From the IMG/VR virus record IMGVR_UViG_3300006353_000011, positions 1 to 20,107 of that record: a stretch of DNA of 20,107 bases, one strand, 5' to 3'. A program made the position numbers and the translations under genes. The notes under the pieces were generated by a model, which worked only from the letters and a program-made list of their open reading frames with translations, was not told the origin of the DNA and ran no database searches. Positions 411-14,668 of this stretch are shown here, piece after piece. Within the stretch, counting starts at the first letter, position 1, and every line of letters begins with the position of its first letter. This DNA is from a virus.

Positions 411-420
411 GATAAATACC
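411..420 (+). promoter_or_regulatory. Candidate late promoter P1 (GATAAATACC)
   Basis: GATAAATACC lies directly after the capsid terminator. The final C of TAAATAC is 33 bases before the ATG at 452. It resembles the T4 late -10 element TATAAATA. By that analogy transcription would start near 424, at the beginning of an AAT-rich leader. No convincing -35 box is visible. Support comes from five other copies in this window, three with almost the same spacing to a start codon. Confidence 0.5.
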
Positions 421-3172: not shown

Positions 3173-3633
3173 TGATCCGCCGCGTTGATACAGCAGAAGA
3201 CGCAATCGAAACCTACGGTATATTCCGCGACAAAATCCTGCACGTGATTGATATCGCAAATGACGACACAACCGAAACCGAAATCCTGAAATTACTCGAT
3301 AGTCGTGAAGCCCTGATGTGGGTCCATAATGACTCCATCGCGATAGTCCAGATCATTATTGATCTTACGAACGGTAGTCGTTGGTGCCTTGTGCGCATCG
3401 CATCCGGTGATCTTTCCGACATCCTAGCGGGCAATTCGGCCATCGCTGAGTGGGCAAAATCCCACGGCGCTATCGGCATCTGTTTGATTGGGAGAAAAGG
3501 ATGGATACGCGTTCTGGCTCCGCTCGGATTCTCTATAAATACTACAAAACAACAAGAAGGCAGGGTCTACCTGCTCAAGAGATTTTTCGATGGCTTCATC
3601 ACCCAAGACGACGACGCAGACCACGCAGACTGA
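3172..3633 (+). CDS. GNAT-like acetyltransferase-fold phage protein (153 aa)
   Basis: The start chosen is ATG at 3172 (TGATG overlap); an ATG five codons upstream is in frame but breaks the junction pattern of the operon. The protein is 153 residues with the order of elements expected of an acyl-CoA N-acyltransferase fold: N-terminal helices, a central beta strand pair around ALMWVHNDSIAIVQIIID, and a C-terminal part with AEWAKSHGAIGI then GRKGWIRVLAPLGFS. GNAT-like proteins with a GRKGW segment are found in the same place in many short-tailed phages, where their substrate is unknown. The classical acetyl-CoA binding R/Q-x-x-G-x-G/A motif is not clear, so catalysis is doubtful and a structural or internal role is possible. 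The 3' end overlaps the next gene by 44 bases. Confidence 0.55.
   Translation: MIRRVDTAEDAIETYGIFRDKILHVIDIANDDTTETEILKLLDSREALMWVHNDSIAIVQIIIDLTNGSRWCLVRIASGDLSDILAGNSAIAEWAKSHGAIGICLIGRKGWIRVLAPLGFSINTTKQQEGRVYLLKRFFDGFITQDDDADHAD
3534..3542 (+). promoter_or_regulatory. Candidate late promoter P2 (TATAAATAC), inside a coding region
   Basis: TATAAATAC matches the T4 late element exactly over TATAAATA. It lies inside the GNAT-like gene (codons for Ser-Ile-Asn-Thr), 48 bases before the ATG at 3590. The spacing differs from the 31-33 bases seen at the best copies, so this copy may be chance. Confidence 0.3.
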
Positions 3634-7737: not shown

Positions 7738-9924
7738 ATGGCCGAGAATAAGAAGAAAAAAGAAATTAAATCGGTAATGTTTGGCGACACCTCGACTGCT
7801 CCCCATAACAGTACTTTGGCCGAAGCCGATAGACAGCTACTGATTGACCAAGGTCTCAATCCCGATGATTACGAGTATGTGCCGGGATATGATCCAGCGA
7901 GCGCCGCATCAGTATCGCCTTGGACAAAACAAGAAGGTGATATCGTCTATTATGACGACCAAACACCCATCAATGTTTCGGATGTTGAATTAGAAGTACC
8001 CACTTCGGTGCGCTTCGAAATCGGGGCACTATCGAAACCAGAAGACCGCCTGACAGCCCTCCGTAAATATTATCCTGATGCGCAGCCGGTTGGCACAGAT
8101 CAATACGTTATGCGTGATCCTGAAACCGACAGGGCAATGGTTTTCAATGTTAAGTCGTGGGTACCGAGTTGGGGTGACGTAGGCGATGCCGCACCTGAAA
8201 TCGTAGGCACGGCTGGCGCTATCAGTGGCGGTATTCTTGGAGGTGCCGCTGGCGCAGGTGTAGGATCGGTTGTCCCTATTGTTGGCACCACCACTGGTGC
8301 GCTTGCAGCCGGTGCGGCTGGAGCCGGGACAGGGTATGCAGCCGGTCGTGATTTATACCAACGCGGCGCAAATATAGTCTTCGGTAATCAGGATACGCGA
8401 ACGACTGGCGAGCAAGTAATCGACGCCGCACAGGATTTTGGTATCGGCGCGACAGGCGAATTAGGCGGCACTATAGTCGGTGGTGCAGTGGCTCGCGGTA
8501 TAGGCAAGGCTGTTGATGCCGTACGCCCATCGAAATTGATTGGTGGTTTAACGCCTGCTGACGACGCAGCCAAGGCAGCACAACGCCTGCAAGCATTTGA
8601 AGACATCGGTGTTCAACCCACTCCAGGTATGATCGCCGGTCCCGTCGCCGCGACACGAGAGCAATCCCGTCTGTCCGGTAACTCGATAATGTCTAATCGC
8701 GTTGGCGAGATCTACGATGATGTAAGCAAGCGTTTTGATGATGTGATCGACCGCACAACTGGTGGCCGAAATCTATCTGCAGCCGAGGCAGGCGATGCCT
8801 TCCAGCAGCGCGCACAGGATTTCAAATCCATCGTAAAAAATCGCCAGAACGAACTCTACGATGACGTAGTTCGACTGACACAAGGCATTACTGCGGATGC
8901 ACCGAACACGGCTCAGTTTCTGAAAACGACGAAGGAAGAATACAAACAACTCGGCCAGTCCGCGAAAATGAATGCCGGATCGGCTTACGAAACCACGATC
9001 AAACAAGCCGAGGCAATCGTTTCAGACGTACAGGCTGGAGCATCGTTCGACACCTTGAAACAAGCCAGAACGGCTATTGGTGATATTGCCTTTGACCGTA
9101 ATCTGCCGACTAAGGAAGGCCAACTTTACCGCAATCTTTATAAATCTTTGACCGACGATATGACGGCCACGGCTGAAAAAGGTGGTGAGGATGTCATTCA
9201 GGCGATGCGCAAAGCCAACAACTTTTCGGCCCGTACCAAAAATCCCGGTAATCTTGTTTCGCAAAACATTCCCGATGAAATCCTTCGAAAGCAGGTTCCT
9301 GAAGCCGCCTACAAGATGATGATTTCCGGTAGCAAAAATGCCGGGAGCAAGATCACCCAAATAGTCCGGCAAGCACGAGTATCAGGTGGCGACGATGCCG
9401 TTAGAGAGATCGGTTCAGGTGTTTTCCAGAAACTCGGTCGGGATAACGCAGGTAACTTTTCGCCTGCCCGTTTGATCGCTGATTGGGACTCACTTCCGAA
9501 GGAAACCAAAACCGCGCTCTATATGACTAAAGACGGAAACGAGCTCCGTAAATCAATGGAGCAGATTGTCGAAGTATCTCGAAATCTTGTCCAATACGCA
9601 GGCACGAAGAACCATTCGAATACCGCTCGCCACCTCTCCACCCAACTCGATAACTTCGTGAATTCCGCCTCCATTGCCGGTGCAATTGCGACTGCATCGC
9701 CATCTGCATTACTTATACCGGTTCTCAAATACGGGGCAGATAAAGCCGGAAAACGCTATGCCAACAAACTGTTTTCTTCGCCGGAAACGTTGCAATGGAT
9801 GGCTGGCCTGAATACCGGCACGACCAAAGGTGCAATCACGCGTCTAACCAACATCTACAATAAGACTGCGGACCAATCTCTGAAGATTGCGATACGAGAT
9901 TATATGCAGGATTTACGGCAATAA
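7738..9924 (+). CDS. Large ejection-type virion protein with Gly/Ala hydrophobic segment (728 aa)
   Basis: At 728 residues this is the largest protein in the window. It begins with a Lys-rich stretch. The first 150 residues are an acidic domain with DDYEYVPGYDP and YYPDAQPVGTDQYV. Residues about 152-210 form an extended Gly/Ala/Val hydrophobic region (GGILGGAAGAGVGSVVP, then GALAAGAAGAGTGYAAG), which suggests membrane insertion. The remaining 500 residues are mainly helical, with charged and Gln-rich segments. I see no catalytic motif. Size, composition and its place between the tail lysozyme and the tail fibre fit the large injected proteins of short-tailed phages, which form or line a trans-envelope channel. 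Function is inferred. The start ATG follows an A/T-rich leader without a good Shine-Dalgarno sequence. Confidence 0.6.
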   Translation: MAENKKKKEIKSVMFGDTSTAPHNSTLAEADRQLLIDQGLNPDDYEYVPGYDPASAASVSPWTKQEGDIVYYDDQTPINVSDVELEVPTSVRFEIGALSKPEDRLTALRKYYPDAQPVGTDQYVMRDPETDRAMVFNVKSWVPSWGDVGDAAPEIVGTAGAISGGILGGAAGAGVGSVVPIVGTTTGALAAGAAGAGTGYAAGRDLYQRGANIVFGNQDTRTTGEQVIDAAQDFGIGATGELGGTIVGGAVARGIGKAVDAVRPSKLIGGLTPADDAAKAAQRLQAFEDIGVQPTPGMIAGPVAATREQSRLSGNSIMSNRVGEIYDDVSKRFDDVIDRTTGGRNLSAAEAGDAFQQRAQDFKSIVKNRQNELYDDVVRLTQGITADAPNTAQFLKTTKEEYKQLGQSAKMNAGSAYETTIKQAEAIVSDVQAGASFDTLKQARTAIGDIAFDRNLPTKEGQLYRNLYKSLTDDMTATAEKGGEDVIQAMRKANNFSARTKNPGNLVSQNIPDEILRKQVPEAAYKMMISGSKNAGSKITQIVRQARVSGGDDAVREIGSGVFQKLGRDNAGNFSPARLIADWDSLPKETKTALYMTKDGNELRKSMEQIVEVSRNLVQYAGTKNHSNTARHLSTQLDNFVNSASIAGAIATASPSALLIPVLKYGADKAGKRYANKLFSSPETLQWMAGLNTGTTKGAITRLTNIYNKTADQSLKIAIRDYMQDLRQ

Positions 9925-9929
9925 ATACT
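9921..9929 (+). promoter_or_regulatory. Candidate late promoter P4 (ATAAATACT)
   Basis: ATAAATACT overlaps the stop codon of the preceding gene, and the C of TAAATAC is 33 bases before the tail-fibre ATG at 9961. The leader between them is AT-rich, contains the palindrome TGATATCA and ends with AAGAAG shortly before the ATG as a possible ribosome binding site. Spacing equals that of P1. Confidence 0.5.
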
Positions 9930-9960: not shown

Positions 9961-11415
9961 ATGGTAGATATCAGCAATAACAAATGGACCGAATTGGATG
10001 GCGGAAATATATCAGCATCACCTGATGGCGTCCAAGGTGGTTATCAACCATCTACACTCGCCCCTATTATCCGCAGCATAAGAGGCGCAGTTAAACGAGA
10101 ATATGTATCTGCTAACCCCGTCTATGCATCAAGTGGCTCCGCCAACACCTATGCCATCGCCTTCGCAACACCGCTCGAAATCGCCAAAGGCAAACGTATT
10201 GCGTTCTTCGCAAACGTTACGAATACCGGCGCATCCACGATCAATTTAAACGGAACAGGTGCCGTCGCTATTGTCCGTGTAGACGGTACGGCTTTGCAAG
10301 CAGGCGATATCAGGGCGGGTTATCCGGTTGACCTTCTGTATGACGGGACCCGCTACATCCTCCAGTCGGCAGTTAATCTTTCGAACTATTCCGGCACAAT
10401 CACGGCTACCGCCTTCACTGGCTCTGGCGCGGCCTTGACGGCCTTGAACGCCACCAACTTGACGACAGGCACGGTCAACAACGCTCGTCTTCCAAGCTCT
10501 ATGACCGGTAAAACATTCACCTCGGCAACAACTATTTCGGCTGGCGGTTTGAATCTGAATGATAGCAGTTTGACTATTCAAAATGGACAGATTCTTGTTC
10601 GCTCTGGTGCGCCAATCATTCAGATGCAAGAGTCCGATAATAGCGACAAAAACTGGTATTTGGTTGTAGATGGCGGTAACTGGTCTATCCGCGAAAACAC
10701 CACTGGAAACACAAGGCTATCGATAACTGCTGGCACAGCAACAACGTCTCTTAAAATGGATGGCAACACTGTCTGGACCGCTGGCAACGGTGGCGCTGGT
10801 TCGGGTCTGGACGCCGACCTTTTGGACGGTCAACACGGCGCATATTACCTTGCCCGCTCTAATGGTACAGGCACTCAGGCGATTAGCACAGTCGCGGGAC
10901 TCCAAGCAGCAATAGATGCACTCAACGCGTCAATAGCAGTAAGCACCCCTACCGGTTCTGTGACAATGTGGACAGCCGCTACATCGCCTTCGGGATATTT
11001 GATTTGTAACGGTGCAGCGGTATCCCGCACAACATACGCTGCATTGTTCGCGGTCATTGGAACGACATACGGCGCAGGCAACGGCTCCACCACATTCAAC
11101 CTACCCGACTTAAGAGGCGTATTTCCTCGTGGTCTCGATAGCGGGCGTGGACTAGATGCCGGTCGTATAATCGGGTCCTATCAAGACTCGGACAACAAGT
11201 CGCACAATCACGGTGTTAACGACCCCGGACACGTACACGGAGGCGTCCAGAATGGTCAAAGTAGTACCGGTCGTTCAACTTCTGTTGACCAGCCACCTGC
11301 CGTCTTCTCATTCGGTAATACGTGGGCGGCGGCCACCGGTATTTGGCTTTCTGCAAGCGGTGGCGCGGAATCCAGACCGCGCAACATAGCCTTGAATTTC
11401 ATCATCAAGACTTGA
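9961..11415 (+). CDS. Tail fibre with phage tail collar domain (484 aa)
   Basis: This is the receptor-binding type fibre. The N-terminal 150 residues (starting VDISNNKWTELDGGNISASP) are probably the virion-attachment part. The middle has beta-helix-like repeats and a GLDADLLDGQHGAYYLARS segment at about 282-300, a frequent trimeric-fibre motif. Residues 331-396 are a tail collar domain: GSVTMWTAATSPSGYLICNG, then TTYAALFAVIGTTYG and NLPDLRGVFPRGLD. The C-terminus (400-484) has HNHG and HVHG histidine pairs, as in metal-binding fibre tips, and ends LNFIIKT. No separate fibre chaperone gene follows; a bidirectional terminator lies directly after the stop. Start ATG at 9961 is preceded by AAGAAG. 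It closes the + strand virion module. Confidence 0.8.
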   Translation: MVDISNNKWTELDGGNISASPDGVQGGYQPSTLAPIIRSIRGAVKREYVSANPVYASSGSANTYAIAFATPLEIAKGKRIAFFANVTNTGASTINLNGTGAVAIVRVDGTALQAGDIRAGYPVDLLYDGTRYILQSAVNLSNYSGTITATAFTGSGAALTALNATNLTTGTVNNARLPSSMTGKTFTSATTISAGGLNLNDSSLTIQNGQILVRSGAPIIQMQESDNSDKNWYLVVDGGNWSIRENTTGNTRLSITAGTATTSLKMDGNTVWTAGNGGAGSGLDADLLDGQHGAYYLARSNGTGTQAISTVAGLQAAIDALNASIAVSTPTGSVTMWTAATSPSGYLICNGAAVSRTTYAALFAVIGTTYGAGNGSTTFNLPDLRGVFPRGLDSGRGLDAGRIIGSYQDSDNKSHNHGVNDPGHVHGGVQNGQSSTGRSTSVDQPPAVFSFGNTWAAATGIWLSASGGAESRPRNIALNFIIKT

Positions 11416-11548
11416 CCAAAAGCCCCTTAAATGGGGCTTTCTTATTTTCACCTTCTTCAGCTTCGTATTCTTCAATCGCCTTTTCAGCGGCTTTTACGGG
11501 ATTTGATAACTGCGCTATTAAGCCGTTACAGGGCTTCTCATCTGACAT
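11405..11548 (-). CDS. 47-aa protein whose 3' end runs through a terminator
   Basis: ATG at 11548 overlaps the stop of the 186-residue gene (TGATG), giving 47 residues beginning MSDEKPCNG, with an acidic helix EKAIEEYEAEEGENK and a short tail KAPFKGLLVKS. No family is recognised. The tail is encoded by the stem-loop that ends tail-fibre transcription on the other strand, and the stop lies within the last codons of the fibre gene. Coupling to the upstream gene and the clean helix argue that it is real, but it is short and could be a chance extension. Confidence 0.45.
   Translation of the reverse strand: MSDEKPCNGLIAQLSNPVKAAEKAIEEYEAEEGENKKAPFKGLLVKS
11419..11440. terminator. Bidirectional terminator between convergent modules
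   Basis: Perfect 8-bp stem AAAGCCCC (11419-11426) and GGGGCTTT (11433-11440) with a 6-base loop. On the + strand it follows the tail-fibre stop by four bases with a T-rich continuation; on the - strand it is followed by TTTT and falls inside the last codons of the 47-residue gene. It probably stops both convergent transcripts. Confidence 0.75.
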
Positions 11549-12108
11549 CAAAAACCCTCCACGAAATCAACGCCGTTGAACGCGGAATTGCTCTCTAAAA
11601 GCTCGAATAAATTATCTAAATGCAGCAATTGATCGAGACTAATATCATTCGTATATCGCCGCCATTTACCGTTATAATTACGACGTTTGTACTTTATTTT
11701 GTCTTGCAGGAGACCTTTTAAAAAATCCTGCCACGGTTGCGATTTGCCATTTCGATTTACCGGTGTCGCTGTCTTTTGCAAAACGCTCCAGACGTTTGAA
11801 ACATATTCGTCTGCTGACACAGCCACTGCATCCAATGTGGATATCATATACAACTCGGCGATGAGGTTGTTTAGCAATCGCCGGTCAGGAATATCAAGGT
11901 ACGGCTTGCCTTGATTAGTACCCGTCGATTTAATCGAGTAGTCGATTACAAGCGCGTGATTCGACAACTCATCTAAAGTTGATTCCTCTCGCCCACCGAC
12001 ATCGTATAATTCGCCGTCCACCAATCCATAATCTTTGATAAGATCATCAATCCAAGCGGATGATGTACGTGGTGCTGGTGGTTTTATCTTACGTGATTTT
12101 ATTGCCAT
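11548..12108 (-). CDS. Unrecognised 186-aa phage protein
   Basis: I do not recognise this protein. It has a basic N-terminus (MAIKSRKIKPPAPR), then helix SSAWIDDLIKDYGLVDGELY, a beta segment HALVIDYSIKS, a long helix around LLNNLIAELYMISTLDAVAV, a second one at WSVLQKTATPVN, a basic stretch KIKYKRRNYNGKWRRYTND (about 139-157) that could bind nucleic acid, and an acidic leucine-rich C-terminus. There is no signal peptide or membrane span, so it is not a holin. AAGGATC precedes ATG at 12108, giving a fair ribosome binding site. It is downstream of the endolysin on the same strand and has its own TAAATAC motif upstream, so it may be expressed late. Confidence 0.65.
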   Translation of the reverse strand: MAIKSRKIKPPAPRTSSAWIDDLIKDYGLVDGELYDVGGREESTLDELSNHALVIDYSIKSTGTNQGKPYLDIPDRRLLNNLIAELYMISTLDAVAVSADEYVSNVWSVLQKTATPVNRNGKSQPWQDFLKGLLQDKIKYKRRNYNGKWRRYTNDISLDQLLHLDNLFELLESNSAFNGVDFVEGF

Positions 12109-12263
12109 TTATTTGATCCTTTGAATATGCGTAGACGTTGCCTCGCCCACAAATGTATTTATTCAAAAGTCCAAAAAATGAGCATTTAGCGCCAAATTTC
12201 CAATGGCGTACCGTTTGGGGCAGAAGTGACCTATCCTGTCAGCGACATCAAACTAGCCCCTCC
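12109..12263. other. Intergenic gap with small hairpin; possible short RNA
   Basis: There is no coding sequence of note here. It holds P5 on the minus strand, a small hairpin CGCCA/TGGCG near 12190-12210, and on its right edge the stem of a terminator that points to the + strand. A + strand transcript ending there has no visible gene, so either a small RNA is made or the terminator mainly serves the minus strand. Confidence 0.3.
12155..12162 (-). promoter_or_regulatory. Candidate late promoter P5 (ATAAATAC, minus strand)
   Basis: On the minus strand AATAAATACAT lies 47 bases upstream of the ATG at 12108. It is intergenic and shares the ATAAATAC core with P1, P2, P4 and P6. Spacing is longer than at the best copies. 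Confidence 0.4.
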
Positions 12264-12282: not shown

Positions 12283-12764
12283 GTTGATGCAGTGGGTCGC
12301 TTCTCAGACTTCGGAGCGGCGATGATAGGCGTGTCGAATAGCATTCTTTCAGCAGCACGACGTGCGGTCAGGCCAGCAAGGATACGACCACCACCCTTAT
12401 TCCATCTTTCAAACTGAGCAGCGGCTTCTTTTGTGCGACCAGCATTCAGCAATTTCAACAGAGTCGATGAAGCAAATGCACCGGTTCCAATATTATAACA
12501 AAAGGACACCAAAGCGCCGAATTGGTTCTCGTTGATAGGGACTTTGACCAATCTCGATACGTCAGCCTCGAAGCGTTTTAGGTCGTCTTGGAGGAGTTTC
12601 TCAGCCTGCGCTTCGGTGATCTTTTTGACACCGACATCCGACGCTTTGACCGTCGCGGTATGCCCGAATCCGATTGTGGGTACGTGCGCGGCGCAGTAAT
12701 ATGCGGTAGTTTTGAGACCTTCAAAACGCTTAATTAAAGATAATGCGGCTGCATTGATAGCCAT
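12264..12764 (-). CDS. Endolysin, GH24 (T4-type) lysozyme, 166 aa
   Basis: A muramidase that cuts the glycan strand of peptidoglycan to release progeny. The N-terminal part contains LIKRFEGLKTTAYY and VPTIGFGHT, the signature of GH24 lysozymes. The catalytic triad reads Glu15, eight residues, Cys24, five residues, Thr30. The family normally has Asp in the middle position; Cys is a known natural alternative, and the D20C change in T4 lysozyme keeps activity. NQFGALVSFCYNIG, KLLNAG and RRAAERMLF follow as expected. There is no signal peptide or SAR membrane anchor, so it needs a holin, and none lies beside it. The leader contains a perfect 13-bp hairpin overlapping a TAAATAC promoter candidate and burying the ribosome binding site. 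The C-terminal Lys-Lys comes from the terminator. Confidence 0.85.
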   Translation of the reverse strand: MAINAAALSLIKRFEGLKTTAYYCAAHVPTIGFGHTATVKASDVGVKKITEAQAEKLLQDDLKRFEADVSRLVKVPINENQFGALVSFCYNIGTGAFASSTLLKLLNAGRTKEAAAQFERWNKGGGRILAGLTARRAAERMLFDTPIIAAPKSEKRPTASTKKAPR

Positions 12765-12766
12765 TG

Positions 12767-12800
12767 AAATACACCTGTAAAATTGAATACAGGTGTATTT
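12767..12800 (-). promoter_or_regulatory. Hairpin sequestering the endolysin ribosome binding site
   Basis: In minus-strand sense, AAATACACCTGTA (12800-12788) and TACAGGTGTATTT (12779-12767) are perfect 13-bp complements with an 8-base loop. The 3' arm contains AGGTG, the only Shine-Dalgarno-like sequence for the ATG at 12764, so folding would block translation. No T run follows, so it is not a terminator. The late-promoter motif overlaps the 5' arm, so transcripts starting there lack most of that arm and cannot fold. Confidence 0.75.
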
Positions 12801-12802
12801 AT
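12795..12802 (-). promoter_or_regulatory. Candidate late promoter P6 for the endolysin (ATAAATAC)
   Basis: ATAAATAC on the minus strand, with C 31 bases before the endolysin ATG. By analogy with T4 late promoters (last A of TATAAATA at -6) the transcript would begin near 12790, within the 5' arm of the hairpin. T4 gene e has the same arrangement. Confidence 0.6.
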
Positions 12803-12820
12803 TTTCGTTACATCAGATGA

Positions 12821-13603
12821 TTATCGGTAGCGGCGAATATACTCTTTCACCAAATGCGTACCGACATCATAGTAATGTTGGTCTTGCTCTATGCATATCC
12901 ATTTCCGAGCAGTTGATTGCGCAGCTAATGCTGTAGTTCCTGAACCAGCGGTATTGTCCAACACGACATCGCCGGGATTAGAATACCAATTGATAAGCCG
13001 CTGAAACAAAGGCACGGGTTTGCGTGTCGGATGTATGCCCTTATCGATCCAGTCCCATTTAGCCATTTCAATGGGATCGGTAGTCAGAATCGAAGTCGGA
13101 AAGCCTACTGCATCAACTAGGTGATCGTTATCCATTGTGTCGCGGCTGATATACGACTCGCCACTAGCCTTTGCCTTCTTGCCTTTACGCACGACCGGTT
13201 CATCAAGGGCGGTGGTATCAGGATTGTAGGTATGCCGCTGTCGATAGAACACGAGGATGTCTTCGTGCGCGTTCATCGGCTTCTTCTTGGCATTGGCGTA
13301 ACCCGTCGCCCGTTGTTTGTCCCATACCAGCGCGTAAAACTTCGGAAAGACCGCGCGCCCAGAGTTGATCAGCGTCGTCGTAAACGGCTGCTGCGCCGTT
13401 AATACAATAGCGGCATTCGGCTTGCATATCCGGCTGTACTGGCTCCACAATTGCTCTGGATCAATAATCGAATCCCATTCCAGGTCGAGCACTTGGTAAG
13501 GAAGATCGCACAACACCATATCGACCGAGCCGTCCGGGATGTCTTTCATCACCTCCAGACAATCGCCCATAAAGTATTCACCATTCCCGATTTTTTCGCC
13601 CAT
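12821..13603 (-). CDS. Orphan DNA methyltransferase, beta-class amino-methyltransferase (260 aa)
   Basis: S-adenosylmethionine-dependent DNA methyltransferase of the N6-adenine / N4-cytosine group. The catalytic motif IV is DLPY at 33-36, a variant of DPPY, and the SAM-binding motif I is DNTAGSGTT at 216-224. Motif IV before motif I defines the beta class. GDCLEVMKDIPDGSVDMVL near the start and IHPTRKPVPLFQRL before motif I are typical. No restriction endonuclease gene lies beside it, so it is an orphan enzyme, most likely protecting phage DNA or affecting phage or host gene expression; its target cannot be read from sequence. Its gene ends 57 bases before the endolysin start with no terminator between, so its transcripts would read into the endolysin hairpin. 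It is divergent from the gene at 13679. Confidence 0.85.
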   Translation of the reverse strand: MGEKIGNGEYFMGDCLEVMKDIPDGSVDMVLCDLPYQVLDLEWDSIIDPEQLWSQYSRICKPNAAIVLTAQQPFTTTLINSGRAVFPKFYALVWDKQRATGYANAKKKPMNAHEDILVFYRQRHTYNPDTTALDEPVVRKGKKAKASGESYISRDTMDNDHLVDAVGFPTSILTTDPIEMAKWDWIDKGIHPTRKPVPLFQRLINWYSNPGDVVLDNTAGSGTTALAAQSTARKWICIEQDQHYYDVGTHLVKEYIRRYR

Positions 13604-13678
13604 TTTCGAAGCCCGTTAACCCATCGTTTCACGGATACACCGATAGATTGCGGAGGTTAAAAAACGGATCACAAAAAA

Positions 13679-14668
13679 ATGCGTCGTCGTATCCCTCTGC
13701 CTGCCAATATCACCGACAAGATCATCGCGCTTTCTAACGCGCCGAAAATCCGAGAACTCAACGATATCTACGCGCTTGTTTGGTTTAATGGATTAACCGA
13801 ACAGGACCACGAAGATATCCGTGTAATCGCTCCGGCATCGATGAAGGTCGGAACGCATCATACCGACATAACCGATGGCGTTGTGACACGCCGGATCATA
13901 GGCAAGACGGATTGGCAGGATAACGACCATTCCCAAATTTACGTGATACCGAAGGTCTACCTTTCGAAACCCGAAATCATACCCGAGCTTCTGGAGGCAA
14001 TGTTCGGTGATATGGCTATATTTTCTCGCCATACCAGCCACGCACCGATAGAGGGCAAAGGGCTGGCTTGGGACGCCGACAAGAACAAAATCGTCAAGCG
14101 GGATATCAAGGCCACGGATAAGGTTATGACGCATTCGGGCAGCGTCATTTATGCGCAACACCTCCTTGAAGACCGAGGGGATTGCGACATCGTATTAATA
14201 CCGGCGAGTTTCCATAACCGGCACCTGCCTAAGATCGAAAACTCTAAAACAATGTCGGACTACGTGCTGACGCAAGCCACCGCGTGGAAAATTCACGAAA
14301 GAACCATTATCGCGCACCTTGAAGATCATAAGGCGACAAGACAACCGCATCCCAATATCAGGCCGCTTTATCTCCGCACGGTGAAAACGCCAAAACGGGG
14401 TAATAACCAATGTTATGACGTGCATCTCACCGATATTGAAGAAGGTAATAAACCAGCCAATATCTTTCAGTTTTTCGTCAATCCGACCGAACTGAAACTA
14501 ATTAAGCAGCAGAAAAACAAAAGACAGTTCGGCCTGCCTTATGTGCTCGACCACCTGACAACGATTGTCGGCATAGATGCCTTACAGCCAAAAGATTATC
14601 ACGACCGGCTAAATATCCTTAGGAAACAAAAGGAAGAAGCCGCTAATGATCAAAATCAAAGACCCTGA
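13679..14668 (+). CDS. Unrecognised 329-aa protein
   Basis: I do not recognise this protein. It is soluble, with no signal peptide or membrane span, mixed alpha/beta and rich in His, Asp and Lys. Visible parts: MRRRIPLPANITDKIIAL, YALVWFNGLTEQDHEDIRV, a GTHHTDITDG stretch near 58-67, YVIPKVYLSKPEIIPELLEAMFGD, CDIVLIPASFHNRHLP in the middle, and a Lys/Gln-rich C-terminus. His and Asp clusters might bind metal, but no known catalytic motif is complete. ATG at 13679 follows an A run; a strong GGAGG sits 22 bases upstream, too far to be ideal, with no in-frame ATG, GTG or TTG closer to it. The last 23 bases overlap the next gene, so the two are probably co-translated. The divergent neighbour is the methyltransferase. 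Confidence 0.65.
   Translation: MRRRIPLPANITDKIIALSNAPKIRELNDIYALVWFNGLTEQDHEDIRVIAPASMKVGTHHTDITDGVVTRRIIGKTDWQDNDHSQIYVIPKVYLSKPEIIPELLEAMFGDMAIFSRHTSHAPIEGKGLAWDADKNKIVKRDIKATDKVMTHSGSVIYAQHLLEDRGDCDIVLIPASFHNRHLPKIENSKTMSDYVLTQATAWKIHERTIIAHLEDHKATRQPHPNIRPLYLRTVKTPKRGNNQCYDVHLTDIEEGNKPANIFQFFVNPTELKLIKQQKNKRQFGLPYVLDHLTTIVGIDALQPKDYHDRLNILRKQKEEAANDQNQRP

Follow-up and report, generated by a model that had tools for sequence, protein, structure and literature searches.

The endolysin gene of this short-tailed phage is preceded by a perfect hairpin whose 5′ arm is overlapped by a promoter-like motif, AATAAATAC, and the two probably form a late switch of the kind known from T4 gene e. Comparison with related genomes indicates that the arrangement recurs throughout the genome and serves other genes too. 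The window (the whole 20,107-nucleotide stretch of IMG/VR record IMGVR_UViG_3300006353_000011 that was analyzed; Table 1) was compared with relatives found via the endolysin and the nozzle protein; together with the window, G001, G002, G004, G005, G006, G007, and G012 make up clade A. None of the virion genes places these phages with T4 (Straboviridae). Their serine recombinases, KAP NTPase, portal (phrog_1216), scaffold, and nozzle (phrog_3287) are of the temperate podovirus type.

Table 1. Genes, hairpin elements, and motif sites of the window
Feature	Position	Strand	Evidence
Endolysin (phage lysozyme, PHROG 7), 166 aa	12264..12764	-	phrog_7, E = 3.7e-63; PF00959 over cut-off
DNA methyltransferase, 260 aa, codirectional, upstream of endolysin	12821..13603	-	phrog_67, E = 5e-59
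Late-promoter-like motif AATAAATA, then C, of endolysin	12796..12803	-	7-mer ranking; positional enrichment; kept in G001 (L002) despite differing upstream DNA
Predicted +1, T-G initiator 12791/12790, motif index 13, inside 5′ arm	12790	-	Suggested by T-purine offset
5′ arm AAATACACCTGTA	12788..12800	-	Inverted repeat and fold
8-nt loop TTCAATTT	12780..12787	-	Inverted repeat
3′ arm TACAGGTGTATTT with SD-like AGGTG (12776-12772)	12767..12779	-	Inverted repeat, fold, accessibility
Motif AATAAATA upstream of 186-aa ORF 12108-11548; leader hairpin leaves SD uncovered	12156..12163	-	
Motif GATAAATAC, 41 nt before head-tail gene at 452; arms AAATACC 414-420, GGTATTT 442-448	411..418	+	
Motif TATAAATAC, 56 nt before ORF at 3590; without hairpin at motif	3534..3541	+	
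Motif AATAAATAC, 41 nt before tail-fibre gene at 9961; without SD-covering hairpin	9920..9927	+	

The hairpin is as a preliminary description of this DNA had it: two arms of 13 nt each, 100% complementary, enclose an 8-nt loop, and the 3′ end lies 2 nt from the endolysin ATG. No other perfect close inverted repeat in the 20-kb window is as long, and an Rfam search matched the hairpin to no family. The 3′ arm contains the Shine-Dalgarno (SD)-like AGGUG, seven bases upstream of the ATG. Folding prediction gave −24.9 kcal/mol for the long minus-strand RNA (z = −4.9; 0/200 shuffles as good) versus an unremarkable −6.3 (z = 0.16) for RNA beginning at 12790, which does not form the hairpin. The predicted probability that the SD is unpaired is 0.00 in the long RNA and 0.50 in the short one. 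Both the burial of the SD and the effect of removing 10 of the 13 bases of the 5′ arm, close to a check that had been proposed, are borne out by the predictions.

The T4-late-like element reported over the base and 5′ arm of the hairpin does overlap it, but it is properly AATAAATAC and is not peculiar to the endolysin: the 9-mer recurs before two other genes of the window, with GATAAATAC and TATAAATAC before a further two. DATAAATAC is found 39 to 56 nt upstream of five window gene starts (452, 3590, 9961, 12764, and 12108), and ATAAATACA occurs at 12794-12802 and 12154-12162, with 0.11 expected per window. With one mismatch allowed, TATAAATA has 21 window sites versus 19 expected, i.e., chance level, and the motif therefore needed comparative support, which the comparison supplied. 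A terminator-like hairpin (GGCGGG..CCCGCC plus a T-run) lies at ~377-398, immediately upstream of the motif at 411.

Throughout the clade A genomes, NATAAATA sits 30 to 60 nt upstream of gene starts. Sites 20 to 62 nt before an ATG ORF account for 48 of 66, versus 182/675 (27%) for permuted motifs of the same composition (Fisher, 3e-13, in genomes that are partly redundant, as the window and G001 are). Unbiased ranking of all upstream 7-mers places ATAAATA first in G001, G005 (11/12, 1.3e-8), and G013 and tied for first in G012; it is not among the leading 7-mers in G007. In 38 deduplicated clade A leaders, no −35 signal was found, and C follows the motif in 23. Counting from the motif, 28/38 leaders have T at index 12 (p = 1e-9) and 34/38 have a purine at index 13, and a T-purine step at offset 13 is present in 26/38 leaders, versus at most 8 at every other offset in the range 9 to 29. 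A purine likewise occupies index 13 in 14/17 TATAAATA leaders of T4, used as a control. The putative T-purine initiator thus has the T4 late spacing, which predicts that transcription begins at 12790, within the 5′ arm, in agreement with the late start near 12790 that had been anticipated. We infer from this pattern that the clade A motif is a late promoter. Motif sites are also seen in early regions (G001 6504 and 6655, plus strand; G002 4541 and 4701, plus strand; G007 7300, plus strand, and 30359, minus strand), with a TAAATTGCNNTA-like sequence ~35 bp upstream that is possibly an operator common to early promoters. In another phage contig, IMGVR_UViG_3300028794_000025 (L442; 53% G+C), NATAAATA occurs seven times versus 1.1 expected, and six of these sites lie 32 to 53 nt before ORFs.

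Comparison of the window with G001 (L002) delimits the element. The two are identical from the motif onward, including hairpin and loop, and only 17/60 positions upstream are identical, so that a shared upstream element is not needed; the conserved unit, judged from this alignment, is motif plus hairpin plus endolysin. The upstream mismatch arises because the window has the methyltransferase and one further gene there: window positions 12821 to 14668 hold the methyltransferase and a 329-aa ORF, both missing at the same place in G001, and the break in identity falls exactly at the motif. In the window, the methyltransferase stop (12821) is 56 nt upstream of the endolysin ATG, and no convincing minus-strand terminator was found between them, which agrees with the arrangement first described. 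The methyltransferase is accordingly a possible source of the read-through RNA that was proposed to carry the silenced form. However, it cannot be the general rationale, since G001 lacks it at the endolysin locus and still keeps the hairpin. The gene upstream in G001 is divergent, so that read-through from the host or from antisense prophage transcription would have to be invoked there.

Motif and hairpin stand upstream of the endolysin gene in 5/5 clade A relatives examined, and in four the arm sequences differ from those of the window. The arms are AAATACACCTGTA/TACAGGTGTATTT in the window and G001, CATAAGA/TCTTATG extended by ATACC/GGTAT in G005 and G006, CACTTTCA/TGAAAGTG in G007, and TACCGCTTTC/GAAAGTGGTA in G012. 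G013, a myovirus prophage linked to clade A solely through the endolysin and one segment of a fibre, has AAATACCCCTAG/CTGGGGGTATTT. The inner arms therefore vary among the leaders of G005, G006, G007, G012, and G013 while motif and hairpin are kept, and the compensatory changes sought in related leaders are found as pairing retained under changing arm sequence. The arrangement extends to other genes: hairpins with a 5′ arm beginning at motif index 3 to 12 occur in 16/40 clade A motif leaders, versus a mean of 2.0 and a maximum of 6 in 200 shuffles, and in 7/11 leaders of G013 (shuffle mean, 1.25; maximum, 4). The head-tail gene (at 452 in the window) has motif-hairpin leaders in the window, G001, G005, and G006. 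In late genes of G013 (L256 and L257; e.g., at 9347, 11454, and 14656, minus strand), the motif is repeatedly at the base of terminator-like hairpins. Pattern scans of the whole collection for ATAAATACC hairpins gave many matches of a kind that bidirectional terminators can mimic, and few contigs were enriched in the motif; no breadth is therefore claimed from these scans.

The predicted probability that the SD is unpaired rises from long to short RNA in each of the other endolysin leaders: from 0.13 to 0.52 in G005, 0.12 to 0.54 in G006, 0.20 to 0.48 in G007, 0.01 to 0.63 in G012, and 0.01 to 0.59 in G013. In the T4 controls, it rises from 0.04 to 0.56 for gene 49 and slightly, from 0.30 to 0.41, for gene e. 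Accessibility in the short RNAs is thus ~0.5 and not 1, a point against the switch.

In the proposed mechanism, RNA entering the endolysin gene from upstream, through prophage or early read-through and here also from the methyltransferase, would carry both arms. It would fold the 13-bp hairpin and hide the SD, and little endolysin would be made; read-through RNA would be present with its translation blocked. Later in infection, a putative phage-encoded factor that reads the motif would redirect RNA polymerase to initiate from AATAAATAC, with the +1 falling at 12790 within the 5′ arm. The resulting late mRNA would lack 10 of the 13 arm bases, making the hairpin impossible, and the endolysin would be translated. 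All sequence-testable predictions of the T4 gene e interpretation first offered for this leader held, and it needs correction as to the source of read-through, the genome-wide use of the motif, and the lack of a detectable gp55.

The hairpin might instead serve mainly to halt read-through, with the promoter that starts in its 5′ arm resuming transcription beyond it. We consider this unlikely as the main function, even though T-runs follow the hairpins in G013 and at G012 257 and 864 (minus strand) and ordinary terminators lie just upstream of some motifs, such as that before 411. The window hairpin does not have the G+C-rich stem and U-tract of an intrinsic terminator on the transcribed strand: its stem has only 4 G-C pairs, CAATGG and no T-run comes next on the minus strand, and a terminator-like reading exists on the plus strand only. 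T-runs are also missing from the endolysin leaders of G005, G006, G007, and G012. The hairpins of G013 and of the two G012 genes may, from their sequence, act as terminators in addition to blocking translation.

A DNA operator, in which a repressor bound to the dyad would cover the promoter, seems very improbable. Each window arm is nearly palindromic (TACA-NN-TGTA, a pattern with just two occurrences in the window), and dyad and promoter overlap. However, a shared repressor would conserve sequence, and the arms differ between relatives' endolysin leaders and between genes of a single genome (CCTGATAA, CCTATGG, CCCC, and ACACCTGTA in G001) with pairing kept, which counts against an operator. 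For the same reason, nonconservation of the arms, a repressor-operator reading of TACANNTGTA was rejected. We give still less credence to a stabilizer role, in which the normal late mRNA would begin with the intact hairpin and be protected by it; the hairpins are near the inferred start, but the initiator signal places the +1 inside or past the 5′ arm, and the protected mRNA would itself have its SD buried if the hairpin were intact. The T4 gene e-type switch is retained as the best explanation.

The related podovirus prophages of clade B (G008 to G010) show no ATAAATA enrichment and have CCGCTAAATA before several of the same genes. Upstream of the same late genes (L086 to L092; e.g., G008 14643, 19053, and 11828, plus strand), we observed GCCGCTAAATA(G), which is probably a variant late motif. 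Two G008 leaders, those of the endolysin (~32200, minus strand; L087) and the terminase (13189, plus strand; L086), contain hairpins, GTCATCC..GGATGAC and GTTCATTCC..GGAATGAAC, that loop out a promoter-like element and include the ATG in their 3′ arm. These are possibly leaderless or start-in-hairpin variants. A first genome scan with the nozzle profile gave no matches; three close relatives of the nozzle protein are present in genomes sampled from the family of an Ochrobactrum, which makes the alphaproteobacterial host suggested earlier plausible.

No match to gp55 (phrog_234) or to sigma70 region 2 (PF04542) was found at E ≤ 10 in 11 records, which, as IMG/VR records, are possibly incomplete. 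An ~130-aa protein is encoded directly ahead of the late operon, on the opposite strand, in 7/7 clade A records covering that place (G001, at 10269-10661, minus strand [L052]; G002; G004; G005; G006; G007; and G012) and has an invariant Trp. Doubtful counterparts (E = 0.17 to 0.28) occur in G013 (21803-22258, plus strand) and in clade B (G008 11396-11866, minus strand). Searches of Pfam and PHROGs gave nothing significant, tblastn gave no match in known phages, and Foldseek matched the AlphaFold2 model (mean pLDDT, 77) to nothing significant in PDB or BFVD; naming this protein as a candidate for the motif-reading factor is therefore only a guess. An 86-aa protein encoded before the small terminase was dropped as a candidate because it is also present in clade B, which is without the motif. 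More broadly, we propose tentatively, as a possibility that we rate below the switch itself and short of probable, that clade A-type phages read T4-type NATAAATA promoters with an unrecognized late specificity factor of their own, homologous to neither gp55 nor sigma70, and that starting in a hairpin is a repeatedly evolved rule guarding the lysis and structural genes of prophages.

Precedents for a start within a hairpin are T4 genes e, soc, and 49 and I-TevI, together with the segB and mobE leaders of T4-type phages (PMC3014915, PMC2988022). Like T4 gene e, which itself reads TATAAATACC..GGAGGTATTATG, the window leader combines a lysozyme-family gene, a TATAAATA-type motif followed by C, a predicted start in or at the 5′ arm, and an SD in the 3′ arm. 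Unlike T4, clade A consists of temperate podoviruses unrelated to it, in which gp55 is not detectable, several structural genes are served, the motif begins with G or A more often than with T, and the arms are unrelated to those of T4 in sequence. The T4-like late promoters of cyanomyoviruses, NATAAATA, show the same motif with a free first base, but these phages carry gp55, gp33, and gp45 homologues, and the available part of their description contains no rule that places the start in a hairpin (PMC2984593). Phage rV5, whose late motif is TggTAaAAtA, resembles clade A in having a T4-late-like motif without gp55, gp33, or gp45 homologues; it differs in being a lytic coliphage with a weaker, different motif, and the accessible portion of its description does not mention a hairpin architecture (PMC3606486).

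That integrating podoviruses and an unrelated myovirus prophage share motif, initiator spacing, and start-in-hairpin arrangement suggests a general design. The T4 lysozyme switch has been associated with T4-type phages and the gp55/gp33/gp45 machinery that they carry, and a T4-like late motif without detectable gp55 points to an undiscovered late transcription factor. Starting transcription within a hairpin may give prophages a means of silencing a lysis gene despite leaky transcription.
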